This document shows positions 22,760-33,706 of a DNA stretch of 50,506 nucleotides, one piece after another. Both the position numbers and the translations under genes were made by a program. Under the pieces are notes generated by a model. The model was not told where the DNA came from. It searched no databases and was given only the letters and a program-made list of their open reading frames with translations. Source of the stretch: Akkermansia muciniphila (GTDB taxonomy: Bacteria > Verrucomicrobiota > Verrucomicrobiia > Verrucomicrobiales > Verrucomicrobiaceae); contig CAMAZK010000004.1 of assembly GCA_945863205.1 (NCBI GenBank), forward strand, positions 1 through 50,506. The letters run 5' to 3'. Position 1 is the first letter of the stretch. Every line of letters starts with the position of its first letter.

Positions 22760-22845
22760 GACGCTCGGATTCAGCAGAGAGGGGCAGAGGATTGAATCAG
22801 TTCAAAAAACTCTGCCCTCTCTGCTACTCCGCCCCTCTGCGGCAA
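22760..22845. repeat. Palindromic repeat left of GxxExxY gene 1
   Basis: GACGCTCGGATTC, hairpin arms CAGAGAGGGGCAGAG (22775-22789)/CTCTGCCCTCTCTG (22810-22823), then CTCCGCCCCTCTGCGGCAAA. Confidence 0.8.
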
Positions 22846-22867
22846 ACACGAACCACCCACCCCTTCC

Positions 22868-23278
22868 ATGCTCACCGAACCGACCCCCTGCGAGAACGAT
22901 CTCGCCACTCAGATCATCGGCTGCGCGATGATCGTGCATCGTCACTTCGGGCCCGGTCTGGTCGAGAGCGTGTATGAAACCTGCCTCTGTCATGAACTTG
23001 CCAAGGCGGGCCTGGCGGTCGTTCGTCAGAAGCGCCAGCCGATTGTCTATGACGGCATCACTTTTGACGAACCGTTCAAAATGGATGTGTTCGTCAATGA
23101 CACGATCATCATAGAAAACAAAGTCGTCGAAACGGTCCTGCCGCTGCACAAAGCCCAGCTTCGCAGCTATTTGAAACTGGCCAACCGCCGCCTCGGCTTG
23201 TTGATCAACTTCAACGTCGAACGCCTCAAGGAAGGCATCCATCGTGTCGTCAACGGCAGCGCGACGTATGACCTGTGA
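22868..23278 (+). CDS. GxxExxY protein (PD-(D/E)XK nuclease-like, PDDEXK_3)
   Basis: IVHRHFGPGLVESVYETCLCHELAKAGL...FKMDVFVNDTIIIENKVVETVLPLHKAQLRSYLKLANRRLGLLINFNVERLKEGIHRVVN. Confidence 0.9.
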   Translation: MLTEPTPCENDLATQIIGCAMIVHRHFGPGLVESVYETCLCHELAKAGLAVVRQKRQPIVYDGITFDEPFKMDVFVNDTIIIENKVVETVLPLHKAQLRSYLKLANRRLGLLINFNVERLKEGIHRVVNGSATYDL

Positions 23279-23295
23279 GGACTCGGGGTTTGAGG

Positions 23296-23403
23296 GACGC
23301 TCGGATTCACCGCAGAGGGGCAAAGAAGCAGAGGCCGCAGAGAATCAGAATCCAACTCTGATCAAACTCTGCCACCTCTGCTCCTCCGCCCCTCTGCGGT
23401 AAA
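23296..23403. repeat. Palindromic repeat right of GxxExxY gene 1, direct copy of the left repeat
   Basis: GACGCTCGGATTC plus 34-nt arms 23309-23342 / 23367-23400 (29 of 34 complementary), ending CTCCGCCCCTCTGCGGTAAA. Confidence 0.85.
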
Positions 23404-28177: not shown

Positions 28178-29701
28178 TCACGGATCAACCAAGGTCGGCG
28201 CCCAAAGCGGACCTTCCTTCAACTCGGGCGTCTTGCCGTCGGCGGGGAAGGTGGCCTTCGCGGCGGCGCGGACTTGAGCGCTGAGTTCAGCGACGGTCTT
28301 CGCGTGCTCGGGTTTGGCGGCGAGGTTCACGAGTTCGCTGGGGTCGTTGTCGTGATCGTAGAGTTCCGTGCCTGCATTTCCCTCGTCCCACTCCGTGTAG
28401 CGCCAGCGCAGAGTGCGCAGGCTGTAGCCAAAGATGCGTTTGCCGTCCGAGGTCTTGTCGCGTGAAACGGTGGCGCGATTCTTTCCGCCGCCGCGTGAGA
28501 CCTGCGTGAGCGCCCAGCCGCGACCGACTGCATTTGGGTCGTTCAGCATCGGCACGAGGCTCTGTCCCTGGAGGTTGGCGGGCGCTTTGATGCCGGCGAG
28601 CTCCGTGAGCGTGGGATATAGATCGAGATGGCTGACCGGCGTGTTCACGACGGTGCCTTTGCCCTTCGTTCCCGGTGCGACGATGAGCATCGGCACGCGG
28701 GCGCTGCCTTCAAAGAGGCTCATCTTCTGCCACAGGCCGTGCTCGCCCATGTGGTAGCCGTGGTCGCTGGTGAAGACGATGATCGTGTTGTCAGCGAGGC
28801 CGTTTTTGTCGAGCGAATCGACCACGCGGCCGACCTGCGCGTCCATGAAGCTGATGCTGGCATAGTAGGCCTGCACACACTGCCGGCGCAGTTCGTCGGT
28901 GAGCTTGTCCTGTTCGTTTTTATGGCTGCCGAGAGCGGCGGCGGGCACTTCCGGCGGGTTTTTGTCCACGGTGGGATGCACGGGCATCTCCGCTTCTGGA
29001 TACCAGCCGAAGTACGGCACCTTCGGCGCGACGTAAGGCGTGTGCGGGCGGAAGAAACCGACCGCGAGGAAGAAGGGGCGGTCCTTCTGTTTCGCGCAGC
29101 GCTCCAGCACCCACTCGGCATCACGCGCCATGAGGCCGTCGGTGTGTTCGCCGTCATCCTTTGGCGAGGCATACCAGCTCAGCGTGCCGCCGAACTGTCC
29201 GGGCGTGAGCGTGAAGATTTTTGGCTCCTCTTCCATGCGATCGACGCCGGCGGGATTGAGTTCCAGCTCCCACGATCCGGGATCGTCATGGCCGTTCGTG
29301 CCGATCGATTTCGGCACGTTGTAGTGATAGAGCTTGCCGATGCGTGCCGCGAAGTAACCCGCCTGCCGGAAGGCCTGCGACATGCTGATGTGCGAGGGGA
29401 TTGTCTGGCGGAAGATTTGCGCATTGCTCAAGATGCCGGTGCTGTTCGGATACAAGCCGCAGAGCATGGAGTTCCGGCTAGGTCCGCAGAGCGGGAAGGT
29501 GCAGTAGGAGCGCTCGAACCTCACGCCACGCGCCGCCAGCTTGTCGATGTTCGGCGTCTTGGCGCGTGGATCGCCGTAGCAGCCGAGATAGTTGTTCAGG
29601 TCATCGGAGATGATGAAGAGGACGTTCGGCTGCGCCGAAAATGACGAATGCGGAATGACGAATGACGAAAGCAGCGTGGCTAGGAGTAGGATGCGTTTCA
29701 T
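28178..29701 (-). CDS. Sulfatase, iduronate-2-sulfatase-like (FGly motif CGPSR)
   Basis: FPLCGPSRNSMLCGLYPNSTG; FTSDHGYHMGEHGLWQKMSLFEGSARVPMLI; start MKRILLLATLLSSFV. Confidence 0.92.
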   Translation of the reverse strand: MKRILLLATLLSSFVIPHSSFSAQPNVLFIISDDLNNYLGCYGDPRAKTPNIDKLAARGVRFERSYCTFPLCGPSRNSMLCGLYPNSTGILSNAQIFRQTIPSHISMSQAFRQAGYFAARIGKLYHYNVPKSIGTNGHDDPGSWELELNPAGVDRMEEEPKIFTLTPGQFGGTLSWYASPKDDGEHTDGLMARDAEWVLERCAKQKDRPFFLAVGFFRPHTPYVAPKVPYFGWYPEAEMPVHPTVDKNPPEVPAAALGSHKNEQDKLTDELRRQCVQAYYASISFMDAQVGRVVDSLDKNGLADNTIIVFTSDHGYHMGEHGLWQKMSLFEGSARVPMLIVAPGTKGKGTVVNTPVSHLDLYPTLTELAGIKAPANLQGQSLVPMLNDPNAVGRGWALTQVSRGGGKNRATVSRDKTSDGKRIFGYSLRTLRWRYTEWDEGNAGTELYDHDNDPSELVNLAAKPEHAKTVAELSAQVRAAAKATFPADGKTPELKEGPLWAPTLVDP

Positions 29702-29720
29702 GGTTGGTGGAGGGATGGAA

Positions 29721-30678
29721 GACAGCAGAATGGGGACAGCAGAATCAAGAAACAGGTGAGATGGGGAGATGCGCATTCAGGAGATCATTCTGCTGTCTTT
29801 TCCGGGTCTGAAGTCATGGTGGTGATTTCAAGACGAGAACGGTTGAGATTGAGCCACTGGATTCCATCAAGCGACGGAGCGTGAGTCAGAAGTGCCGGGA
29901 GATGCCGTTGATAGCCCGCCTGTGGCCGGTGGAAACCTGTGATGACGAAAGCGTGGCGGGGGCTATGAAACTGGACAGAATGTGTGCCGAGAACCACGCC
30001 CCCAGAAATGATGTCCGTGCGGTGCAAACAGTGCTCCTCACCACCAAAGTGATGGAGGAGGGCTTCATTGTAGAGGCGGCAGTCGAGATGCGTGCCCCAG
30101 TCACGGATGACTTCTTTCAGGTGCGAAACCAGGCGTTCACAATTCTCACCGAGAGGATGCCATCCGGAGCTTCTTTGCGTGGGCTGGTGCCGACTCATGC
30201 CATGCAAGGCATTCTTCAGCAGTTTGCCGCGCACATCGTCTTCCCCAAAGTTGATCAGCTTCACCAGCCGAATGTCCTGGAGCATCGCGTAGTGCAAAGC
30301 CTGGGCTGAATGCTCCGAAAGCAGGGTTGCGACGGCTTTGAGCTCGTACAGCATCTCGTTCACCACAAGGTCGAGGTAGTAGGCCTTTTCAAAGCTGCCG
30401 TGAGTGACCTTCACCGGCACTTGAGTGAACACATCAAAGCCCTCGGCCCGTAACCGGGCGGCGATGTCGTTCTCATAAATCCGCTCGTCAAACAACCGTC
30501 CGAAGCGGTTCCTTGAGGCATAAGCGCAGCGCATCACCGCAGCATCAATCTCGCCGAATTCGCTGTCCGAGACGCTTCGGAGTTCGATGGTGCGGTGGAT
30601 GGACATGTTGGATAAGACAGCAGAATAAGAGCAGGAGATTGTTTCAGAAGGCCATTCTGCTGTCCCCATTCTGCTGTC
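29721..30678. mobile_element. Candidate 958-bp mobile unit with perfect 25-bp terminal inverted repeats carrying a GxxExxY gene
   Basis: GACAGCAGAATGGGGACAGCAGAAT (29721-29745) and its exact reverse complement (30654-30678); inner half-arms ATTCTGCTGTCTT (29787-29799) and AAGACAGCAGAAT (30614-30626). Confidence 0.65.
29785..30606 (-). CDS. GxxExxY-family (PD-(D/E)XK-like) protein with extended C-terminus
   Basis: FGRLFDERIYENDIAARLRAEGFDVFTQVPVKV...YYLDLVVNEMLYELKAVATLLSEHSAQALHYAMLQDIRLVKLINFG; start MSIHRTIELRS at 30606. Confidence 0.8.
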   Translation of the reverse strand: MSIHRTIELRSVSDSEFGEIDAAVMRCAYASRNRFGRLFDERIYENDIAARLRAEGFDVFTQVPVKVTHGSFEKAYYLDLVVNEMLYELKAVATLLSEHSAQALHYAMLQDIRLVKLINFGEDDVRGKLLKNALHGMSRHQPTQRSSGWHPLGENCERLVSHLKEVIRDWGTHLDCRLYNEALLHHFGGEEHCLHRTDIISGGVVLGTHSVQFHSPRHAFVITGFHRPQAGYQRHLPALLTHAPSLDGIQWLNLNRSRLEITTMTSDPEKTAE

Positions 30679-30690
30679 GAAAAATCAGGG

Positions 30691-32109
30691 TTACTTCTTC
30701 GCTTTCTTCCCGCCTTGCCACTTCGGCTCCCACTCAGCGAGCGGATCACGCGCGGTCTTCAGATACTCGCCGATCTTCGCGGCGATCTCGGGATGCTTGT
30801 CAGCGACATCGTTTTCTTCGGCGACGTCGTTTTCTTGATCGAAGAGCTGCACGGGCTTGTCGGGACCGCCCATGCGGATGCCTTTCCAGCGGCCCTGATA
30901 CAGAGCAGCCTGCTTGAACCCGCCTTCGTGAAACTCCCAGTAAAGGAACTCGTGGTCCTTCTGCCCGCCTTTTCCGGTGAGCAGAGGCACCAGGCTGATG
31001 CCGTCCGTCTTCCCCGGCGCGGGCGCACCGGCCAGTTCGGCGGCAGTGGGCATGAAGTCGGGGAAGTAGCCGACTCGGGCGGACTCGCCCGGCTTCACCG
31101 TGCCGGGCCACCAGGCGATGAAGGGCACGCGGATGCCGCCGTCCGTGAGGCTGCGCTTGATGCCGGTGTAGGGACCGTTGGGATCGAAGCGCTCGAGGTC
31201 GTGCTTGCTCTCGTTGTGCGGGCCGTTGTCACTGGTGAAAACGACGAGCGTGTTGTCGGCGATGCCGAGTTCCTTCAAATGCGTCATCATGCGGCCTACA
31301 TAGCCATCGAGACGCGAGATCATCGCGGCCTGTCCTTTGTCCTGCTTCGGCCAATCTTTGTCGGCGTAGGGGCCGTAGTCCGGCACATGCGCGCCATCGC
31401 CCAGTTCGCGGGCTCGCTCGTTATTGGCATGCGGGATGACCATGGCCCAGTAGAGGAAGAAGGGCGCAGCTTTGTTCTCCGTGACGAACTTGATGGCGTC
31501 ATCGGCGAAAAGGTCGTCCGCGTAGTGGATGGCGTCCGTGGCATAACCCGCGCCGTCTTCGCCCACGGGCACGATGATGTTCGAAAGCGGTTCCTTGCTC
31601 TCATTGCGCCAGAGGTAGTCGGGGAAGTGATTGTGCGCGTGGTGCTGGCTCAGGTAGCCGTAAAAGTAGTCGAAGCCCTGCTTGCGGGGCAGGCCCGTCT
31701 CTGCCTCACCGACATTGCCAAGACCCCATTTTCCGATGAGCGCCGTTTTGTAGCCTGCCTTCTTCAAAACGGACGGCACCGTGACATCACCCGGCTTCAA
31801 AGCCTGCGCTGCGGGATTGTCCCTGCCCGAGTTTCCGCGCACGCGCGTGTGACCGTGATGCAGGCCCGTCATCAGCACGCTGCGGGACGGCGCGCACACA
31901 GTGGCCCCAGCGTAGAAATGGGTGAAGCGCATCCCCTCCTTCGCCATGCGGTCGATATTCGGCGTGGTGATGACTTTTTGACCATAGCAACCGAGATCGG
32001 CGTAGCCGAGGTCGTCGGCCATGATCCAGATGAGGTTCGGCTGGGCCGAAAAGGCCGGGTGCGAGACCGCGAGGGACGAAAGAACGAGGAGAGAGCGAAA
32101 CAGCTTCAT
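30691..32109 (-). CDS. Sulfatase, arylsulfatase A-like (FGly motif CAPSR) with Lys-rich C-terminus
   Basis: YAGATVCAPSRSVLMTGLHHGHTRVRGN; IGKWGLGN; start MKLFRSLLVLSSLAVSH. Confidence 0.92.
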   Translation of the reverse strand: MKLFRSLLVLSSLAVSHPAFSAQPNLIWIMADDLGYADLGCYGQKVITTPNIDRMAKEGMRFTHFYAGATVCAPSRSVLMTGLHHGHTRVRGNSGRDNPAAQALKPGDVTVPSVLKKAGYKTALIGKWGLGNVGEAETGLPRKQGFDYFYGYLSQHHAHNHFPDYLWRNESKEPLSNIIVPVGEDGAGYATDAIHYADDLFADDAIKFVTENKAAPFFLYWAMVIPHANNERARELGDGAHVPDYGPYADKDWPKQDKGQAAMISRLDGYVGRMMTHLKELGIADNTLVVFTSDNGPHNESKHDLERFDPNGPYTGIKRSLTDGGIRVPFIAWWPGTVKPGESARVGYFPDFMPTAAELAGAPAPGKTDGISLVPLLTGKGGQKDHEFLYWEFHEGGFKQAALYQGRWKGIRMGGPDKPVQLFDQENDVAEENDVADKHPEIAAKIGEYLKTARDPLAEWEPKWQGGKKAKK

Positions 32110-32215
32110 GGGACGTGTGGCAACGACTCGCGAGGCTCCTTCTTCCATGCAAACTCGCAAGACCCGCAGGCACAGGTGAGCCGGTCGGACGAGCGCCACA
32201 CTCTTCCTGCGACGA

Positions 32216-33706
32216 TTACTTGTCCTTCGCCTTCTTGGTCTTCTTCGCCTTCTTCGCCGGGGCCGGTGGTGGCGGCAGGTCGTCGGAGGGCTGGTCGGAA
32301 AAGCGGAAGGGATCGTCGAGGCGGCGCATTTCGGAGAGGAGCAGCCCCTGCATCTCCTTGAGCTTGTCAGCGTGCTTCGGATCGCCGGCGAGGTTGGGCC
32401 GGCCATGCTCGGCTAGCAGCTCGTGCGGGTTTTCGGCGAGGTTGAAGAGCTGCGTTTCATTCACGCCACGATCCGGAGCCTCGTAGCGGATCAGTTTCCA
32501 GTCGCCCTGCTTGACGCAGCGCATCCCTGGCTTGCTGCCGCCGGCGTAGGAGCCGTAAAGCACGTCGCGGATGGTTGGCTTTTCGCCCATGAGCACGGGT
32601 TTGAAGCTGATTCCTTCATTGCTCTCCGGCGCGGCGACGCCGGCGATGTCGCAGAGCGTGGCGAGGATGTCGAGGAGGTAGATGTTTCCTTCCACACGGG
32701 TGCCGGCTTTGATGCCGGGGCCTTTGACGATGAAAGGCACGCGCCAGGTGTGCTGGTAGAGGTTTTGTTTGCCCATGAGGCCGTGGCGGCCGATCGACAT
32801 GCCATGGTCGGCGGTGTAGAAGATGTAGGTGTTGTCGAGTTCGCCGTCGGCTTCGAGCTGCTTCAGCACGCGGCCGATCTGGATGTCGATGTTCTCGCTG
32901 CAGGCATACTGACGGCCGATTTCGTTGCGAATGCTCGCCTCATCGCGGCGCTTCCACACGCCGCTGACGGCCACTTCATCGCGGACCTCGGCATGCGTCA
33001 TGTCAAAGGGGTGCGCCTTGAGATAATTCGCCGGCAGCGGCGGCTGCAAGGTGTGCAGGGAGGGCGGATTCGACTCGTCGGCGTGGTTCACGGCGCCGTA
33101 TTTCGCGAGCAGCTCGGGCCGGCCGTCGCGCGTGTCGTGAGGATGAGAGAAGCCGTAGTAGATGAGGAAAGGCTTGGTGTCCTTCGCGGCTTCACGATCA
33201 CCGAGGTAGTTCATGACCTGGTCACCATGCCAGGTGCTGCCGCTTTCGTCCGTGCCGCCGCGTTTCGAGGCATCATGACGCACGGTGAAGAGCTTGTTCG
33301 CCGCTTCGTAGCTGTTGCCTGTCTTGCAGGTCCGCATGGTGGCGTAATCGGCGCGATTGAAGACGGCGGGCATCGTGTTCTGCTCAAGCTGCGGCGGGCT
33401 CGTCTTCGCACCCCAAGGTGCGGGCGGCAGATGCCACACGGTGCGTCCGCTCATGATCATGTGCCGCGAAGGCATGCACACCGCGCCACTGAAAGAGCCC
33501 ATGTGATACGCGCCGTCAAAGACCATGCCCTCCGCCGCGAGCTTGTCGAGGTTCGGCGTCTGCAGCGTCGATTGCGGATTGTACATCTTCAAATCGAAGG
33601 GCGACTGGTCATCGACGAGGATGAAGAGAAAATTGGGACGCTTCTCCGCAGCGAACGATGCGGCAACGAAGAGAAATGAAGACAGGAAAACGAACAGTCG
33701 GGTCAT
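32216..33706 (-). CDS. Sulfatase (FGly motif CMPSR) with Lys-rich C-terminus
   Basis: GSFSGAVCMPSRHMIMSGR; YTADHGMSIGRHGLMGKQNLYQHTWRVPFIV; C-term PAPAKKAKKTKKAKDK. Confidence 0.92.
   Translation of the reverse strand: MTRLFVFLSSFLFVAASFAAEKRPNFLFILVDDQSPFDLKMYNPQSTLQTPNLDKLAAEGMVFDGAYHMGSFSGAVCMPSRHMIMSGRTVWHLPPAPWGAKTSPPQLEQNTMPAVFNRADYATMRTCKTGNSYEAANKLFTVRHDASKRGGTDESGSTWHGDQVMNYLGDREAAKDTKPFLIYYGFSHPHDTRDGRPELLAKYGAVNHADESNPPSLHTLQPPLPANYLKAHPFDMTHAEVRDEVAVSGVWKRRDEASIRNEIGRQYACSENIDIQIGRVLKQLEADGELDNTYIFYTADHGMSIGRHGLMGKQNLYQHTWRVPFIVKGPGIKAGTRVEGNIYLLDILATLCDIAGVAAPESNEGISFKPVLMGEKPTIRDVLYGSYAGGSKPGMRCVKQGDWKLIRYEAPDRGVNETQLFNLAENPHELLAEHGRPNLAGDPKHADKLKEMQGLLLSEMRRLDDPFRFSDQPSDDLPPPPAPAKKAKKTKKAKDK

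Follow-up and report, generated by a model that had tools for sequence, protein, structure and literature searches.

A GxxExxY gene between two copies of one hairpin in Akkermansia muciniphila: a candidate minimal mobile element with a PD-(D/E)XK nuclease

The window, i.e. the whole 50,506-nt stretch of Akkermansia muciniphila DNA analysed here, contains a GxxExxY gene that lies between two copies of one hairpin. We propose with moderate confidence that the resulting 958-bp unit (29721–30678) is a minimal mobile element of the order hairpin, GxxExxY gene, hairpin, the nuclease of which would move the unit itself and, in trans, gene-less solo hairpins. By analogy, the best reading is an element that works like REP/RAYT systems but with an unrelated nuclease. 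The proposal is built on the anatomy of the unit, the bracketing of GxxExxY genes throughout the family and across phyla, the covariation of the ends with the protein, the dispersal of solo hairpins in the genome and their presence or absence among congeners, and orthologous sulfatase gene pairs that lack the unit. The features of the unit and its flanks are as follows (positions in the window):

29721–29745, plus strand: left terminal inverted repeat, GACAGCAGAATGGGGACAGCAGAAT, containing two 11-mers GACAGCAGAAT spaced 14 nt
30654–30678, minus strand: right terminal inverted repeat, the perfect reverse complement of the left repeat
29719–29799, plus strand: left hairpin, with outer arm 29719–29745 and inner arm 29786–29799
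30614–30678, plus strand: right hairpin, with inner arm 30614–30626 and outer arm 30653–30678
29785–30606, minus strand: GxxExxY gene of the long form, 273 aa from the conserved M-x-I start, 294 aa from 30669
30214–30567, minus strand: N-terminal PD-(D/E)XK domain with invariant D, ExK and QxxxY
29812–30147, minus strand: C-terminal pseudo-nuclease domain, a predicted second copy of the fold without catalytic residues (no D/ExK in the alignment)
29702–29720, minus strand: 19-nt leader of sulfatase B, a probable recombination trace that matches the unit-adjoining leader of the congener G057 at 18 of 19 positions
28178–29701, minus strand: sulfatase B, downstream flank, start at 29701
30691–32406, minus strand: sulfatase A, upstream flank, a mechanically called open reading frame with its stop at 30691 and its true start probably further in

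The two 25-bp repeats are separated by 908 nt, and we estimate the probability that a perfect inverted pair of this length arises by chance in about 1 kb to be on the order of 1e-9. Each 25-mer is built as a 14-nt direct repeat, (GACAGCAGAATGGG)x2, and both ends of the unit fold as hairpins (DNA z = -3.0 and -3.7), with none of 200 shuffles folding equally well. The unit has the terminal inverted repeats by which insertion sequences are classically recognised, though each end is itself palindromic. Because of this, any gene flanked by two copies of one hairpin will necessarily seem to have terminal inverted repeats, and the essential fact is therefore that the gene lies between two copies of one hairpin. 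Moreover, the final K-T-A-E-stop codons of the gene double as the left hairpin's inner arm, which makes hairpin and gene one compact unit. The reading frame can start at an ATG inside the right repeat, yielding 294 aa, or at 30606, where relatives have their conserved M-x-I, yielding 273 aa. The first-pass annotation, which had described exact 25-bp terminal repeats, inward half-arms that let each end fold on its own, a GxxExxY gene as the only content and a sulfatase start (29701) and stop (30691) as flanks, proved correct on all these points.

The protein of the unit matches TIGR04256 (E = 1.1e-17, 64.5 bits, cut-off 35) and PF13366, PDDEXK_3 (E = 8e-20, 71.7 bits, cut-off 22). No other Pfam or NCBIfam profile matched it, neither a Y1/HUH tyrosine transposase nor any other known transposase family (DDE, HUH, serine, tyrosine), and PF04754 or a related Rpn model gave no match at E-values up to 1. 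The earlier statement that there is no recognisable transposase overlooks the GxxExxY gene itself, the one partner that such ends consistently have from phylum to phylum. Identification as a known defence or phage gene was considered and rejected, the protein having no match in PADLOC or PHROGs. The catalytic residues D76, E85, K87, Q99 and Y103 vary hardly or not at all in an alignment of 29 long-form homologues. The structure of the long protein is predicted confidently (pLDDT 91.8) and contains the element order HHEEEHEE twice; in a profile comparison the second half aligns to the first across 99 columns (E = 9e-4). The second half lacks the catalytic residues, leaving one intact active site in two predicted PD-(D/E)XK-like folds. 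The long form hence looks like a nuclease fused to a pseudo-nuclease, while the short form is presumably a dimer. Sequence searches of the PDB returned no solved relative, and a fold search listed the Cas4-like SSO0001, CinB, MGME1 and AdnA as nearest solved folds with E-values that are all weak (best 2e-3), tentatively pointing to RecB/Cas4-like nucleases. CinB is itself a tandem PD-(D/E)XK protein.

The source genome contains six GxxExxY genes. Inverted repeats also bracket two further long-form genes; they follow the design seen in the unit but differ in sequence (GACAAAAAGATGAGAGACAAAAAAAT and GGTAAAAGATTTGGGGTAAAAAATT), so that three long-form genes of a single genome each have matched ends of their own. 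In the window itself, a short-form GxxExxY gene (22901–23251, plus strand) is bracketed at 22810–23403 by short-period hairpin repeats of the CTCTGC/GCAGAG type. To quantify bracketing, we compared the two 300-bp flanks of each gene and took the score of their best inverted match. Among 91 scorable GxxExxY loci of order-level relatives, which include orthologous copies and hence are not independent, 75 scored above the 99th percentile of 400 control intervals taken from the same loci. The 16 loci without such a bracket include several of a distinct subfamily of about 270 aa. In this subfamily (motif approximately GPGLDEADYE), which is perhaps domesticated, the loci L103, L112, L113 and L119 have no brackets. 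A set closer to independence, the 76 scorable named loci of a genome-wide scan covering about 17 phyla, gave 54 loci with scores above 30, compared to 2 of 608 controls, and 60 loci above the control 99th percentile. None of 30 PIN-domain genes, chosen as a negative control of similar size that is likewise small and patchy, scored above 30. Overall, 71–82% of loci are bracketed versus 0.3–1% of controls. Most long-form units (18/23) have a gene on each side that reads in the same direction as their own, in gene sets that are typically of the sulfatase or DUF1501/DUF1552/DUF1553 type. An exclusive tie to sulfatase genes was rejected, as other units adjoin sulfatases, DUF1501/1552/1553-type genes and oxidoreductases.

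The ends vary together with the protein. Across 130 bracketed loci, end similarity increases steadily as protein similarity increases, and with pairs sharing outside flanks removed the correlation is rho = 0.43, a value reached in 0 of 999 permutations. The repeat period is 14–16 nt for the long protein and 8–9 nt for the short one, and units of the CGCAAAG type are common to related short forms of many phyla. A weaker point, as the three genomes concerned may be close relatives, comes from 39 congeners, in which proteins 80–100% identical to that of the unit occur only in the source genome, G015 and G057; these are also the richest in 25-mers at no more than one mismatch, with about 7–13 copies versus 0–2 elsewhere. 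G057 holds two long-form units, L192 (G057:C24) and L200 (G057:C254), with hairpins of different subtypes, GACAGCAG and GACAGRAG, and it also has solo hairpins of both subtypes.

Solo copies in the source genome were counted by pattern. The 25-mer has 17 sites at up to three mismatches, whereas the reversed control has none, and a degenerate form of it has 24. Inspected in place, the dispersed sites are gene-less hairpins of 60–100 bp that fold strongly (z of about -8 to -9) and lie mostly in short intergenic gaps, sometimes directly 3' of a stop codon, but also between convergent genes and inside a reading frame. The arms start with GACAG or GGCAG, have a 14-nt period and do not match the GTAG/CGTC tag of RAYT systems. 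At L206:2888-2947 a GACAG-type hairpin is apparently inserted in frame within an 874-aa open reading frame, which recalls the Rickettsia palindromic elements. Occurrence of the 25-mer genome-wide without GxxExxY genes had been named in the first-pass annotation as a finding that would refute its reading. Taken literally, this is what we see; it is nonetheless better read as a non-autonomous population, because the two ends of any one unit match one another and covary with the protein. The dispersal of the gene-less hairpins suggests that the nuclease may spread them much as RAYTs are thought to spread REPs. Of the two possibilities raised earlier, a minimal mobile element or one mobilised in trans, the former is the best reading for the unit, gene-less and potentially trans-mobilised copies do exist, and the gene-bearing units appear to move rarely.

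The evidence on movement comes from comparison among congeners. Sulfatases A and B flank the unit in the source genome. Their orthologues in G003 and G007 also form a pair but are separated by only 10 to about 25 bp and enclose no unit; in G057 and G015 the unit is found between two other sulfatases, C and D. After sulfatase A, G057 carries a solo hairpin exactly where the source genome has the unit, and G011 carries a decayed hairpin. At two orthologous sites of another cluster, solo hairpins are absent, present or of a different subtype depending on the congener. The suggested comparison with empty sites thus produced unit-less A–B pairs in G003 and G007, but no target duplication, the sites being too diverged; target-site duplications were sought at the A–B locus and at the orthologous solo sites, and none was established. 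GAA/TTC does adjoin each end of the unit, as had been noticed before, but it does not establish a target-site duplication: TTC/TTC comprises only 3 nt and may be chance, the unit-less sites are highly diverged and one flank of the unit is probably recombined.

A probable trace of recombination is the leader that separates sulfatase B from the unit (TTCCATCCCTCCACCAACC), which is identical at 18 of 19 positions to the unit-adjoining leader in G057 and differs from the sulfatase B leaders of unit-less relatives. On the 3' side of the gene, similarity to the G057 unit extends about 39 bp beyond the terminal repeat into sulfatase sequence. Both the foreign leader and the extended similarity suggest that homologous recombination probably placed or altered the source-genome copy, and the A–B locus alone is therefore no proof of transposition. 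Highly similar unit pairs within the genus are mostly found at orthologous sites, which argues that gene-bearing units move rarely and that their genes are, judging from these comparisons, inherited mostly vertically within the genus. Such rare movement has likewise been described for RAYTs. At a larger scale, the tree of the short form requires 33 changes of phylum for 17 phyla, consistent with horizontal spread.

In anatomy, the closest known systems are REP/RAYT (TnpA-REP, REPINs, REPtrons). In both, a single small nuclease gene is flanked on each side by a copy of a hairpin specific to the family, hairpins without a gene are numerous in intergenic gaps, each repeat type usually comes with one copy of the gene, and inheritance of the gene within a genus is mainly vertical. 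Unlike RAYTs, the GxxExxY protein is of the PD-(D/E)XK and not the HUH/Y1 type. REP palindromes carry an unpaired GTAG or CGTC tag (PMC3733652), whereas GxxExxY hairpins have neither and are made of direct repeats of 8–9 or 14–16 nt. The Y1-transposase (RAYT-like) loci of the same genome, L039-L041, have G+C-rich palindromic flanks of their own, and the hairpins as REPs of resident RAYTs were rejected on the ground that the Y1 loci carry other ends. The closest enzyme precedent is Rpn (recombination-promoting nuclease, Transposase_31), which shares the PD-(D/E)XK superfamily and a patchy distribution across many phyla but is a separate Pfam family, and its genes reportedly have no identifiable terminal inverted repeats or target duplications (PMC10327210). 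Intervening sequences of 23S rRNA with S23 (PF05635) also consist of a short open reading frame bounded by inverted repeats; S23, however, is a four-helix bundle and not a nuclease, and its classic examples lie inside 23S rRNA. Like MITEs, the solo hairpins are short, non-autonomous inverted repeats, but they differ in having no parent element with a known transposase and no established target duplications.

We infer binding, cleavage, transposition and nuclease-driven dispersal along the following lines. The protein would be a RecB-like PD-(D/E)XK nuclease that in the long form is joined to a second, catalytically inactive copy of its fold. It would recognise the short-period repeats of its own cognate hairpin and most likely nick or cut this hairpin upon extrusion as single-stranded DNA or as a cruciform. 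The gene-bearing unit would be moved or copied rarely and the gene-less solo hairpins, in trans, more often, with targets mostly in short gaps between genes, often right 3' of a stop codon inside an operon.

Several other explanations have to be weighed against this mobile element. The nuclease could cut chromosomal sites so that repair copies the locus bearing the hairpin or the unit, in a homing-like spread that involves no transposition reaction and in which hairpins and conserved leaders supply the homology. That the source-genome copy bears the leader of another sulfatase locus, that hairpin subtypes are exchanged at the same site between genomes, and that solo or decayed hairpins follow sulfatase A in G057 and G011 would all fit; solo hairpins at sites that are empty in relatives, and the different contexts in which related units are found across phyla, would not, and we regard homing-like spread as unlikely. 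An improbable alternative is that another enzyme, e.g. a RAYT/Y1 transposase, moves the hairpins while GxxExxY is cargo or a defence or toxin nuclease. Candidates for such an enzyme exist, given 13 Y1-transposase matches in the source genome, and the Rpn proteins, which also form a PD-(D/E)XK family and had been named transposases, turned out to be toxin-antitoxin proteins acting against phages (PMC10327210). The Y1 loci have different ends, however, and the Rpn genes reportedly lack the terminal inverted repeats seen here (PMC10327210). The protein has no PADLOC match, and covariation of the ends with the GxxExxY protein across phyla is not expected of a passenger.

The hairpins might instead act in operon transcripts, with the protein as an RNA-processing nuclease and the spread as a secondary effect, perhaps via RNA. 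The prevalent co-orientation of long-form units with both neighbouring genes and the similar anatomy of S23, a protein known from rRNA intervening sequences, agree with such a system, but the nearest folds are DNA nucleases and solo hairpins also occur between convergent genes and within a reading frame, which renders it very improbable in our view. Rfam gave only a sub-threshold match to mir-3569, and a known structured RNA was rejected. Finally, the repeats are abundant and intergenic and could flank a dispensable gene by chance; considering the excess of bracketed loci over controls, the complete lack of brackets at the PIN genes and the covariation of ends and protein, we give such a coincidence next to no credence.

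The bracketed anatomy extends to S23 genes. Among relatives, 19 of 30 S23 (PF05635) genes are bracketed versus 1 of 92 controls, and in Nostoc-type cyanobacteria 12 of 15 are bracketed by heptamer arrays, e.g. TGTCATT or AGTCAAA. At the S23 loci L142-L171 and L372-L386, all outside rRNA, 31 of 45 score above 30 with inverted arrays of heptamer period, the commonest best period of S23 brackets being 7. The cyanobacterial arrays resemble the STRR heptamers. Short-period intergenic repeats have so far been listed rather than explained: according to a 2018 survey, no other periodic repeat is as abundant in prokaryotic intergenic regions as tandem heptamers, for whose function it saw "no clear clue" (PMC6344855). 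It is conceivable, at somewhat less than even confidence, that GxxExxY with its repeats of 8–9 or 14–16 nt represents one branch of a general, unrecognised class of single-gene elements, each pairing a small protein with a short-period hairpin of its own, that S23 with its heptamers is another, and that this class is the source of much of the intergenic tandem-repeat content of bacteria for which there is no explanation so far.

GxxExxY genes are spread over many phyla, with no described function in the literature searched. This search, covering GxxExxY, PF13366/TIGR04256 and the repeat sequence outside preprints and most subscription journals, returned no relevant work: two papers use the name GxxExxY, neither of them concerning repeats, and PF13366 is mentioned once in passing. 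The pairing of GxxExxY genes with hairpins is widespread and apparently undescribed, and the mechanism given above is our interpretation of it. Once a given repeat family is tied to a given small protein, each of the two acquires a role that can be tested. If the proposal is correct, the unit would define a class of mobile elements with a PD-(D/E)XK nuclease as sole protein, in parallel to REP/RAYT. Should the wider class be real, it would cover the STRR-like heptamers of cyanobacteria, and the mobilisation of its GxxExxY branch would rest on a RecB-like nuclease chemistry without precedent in transposition.
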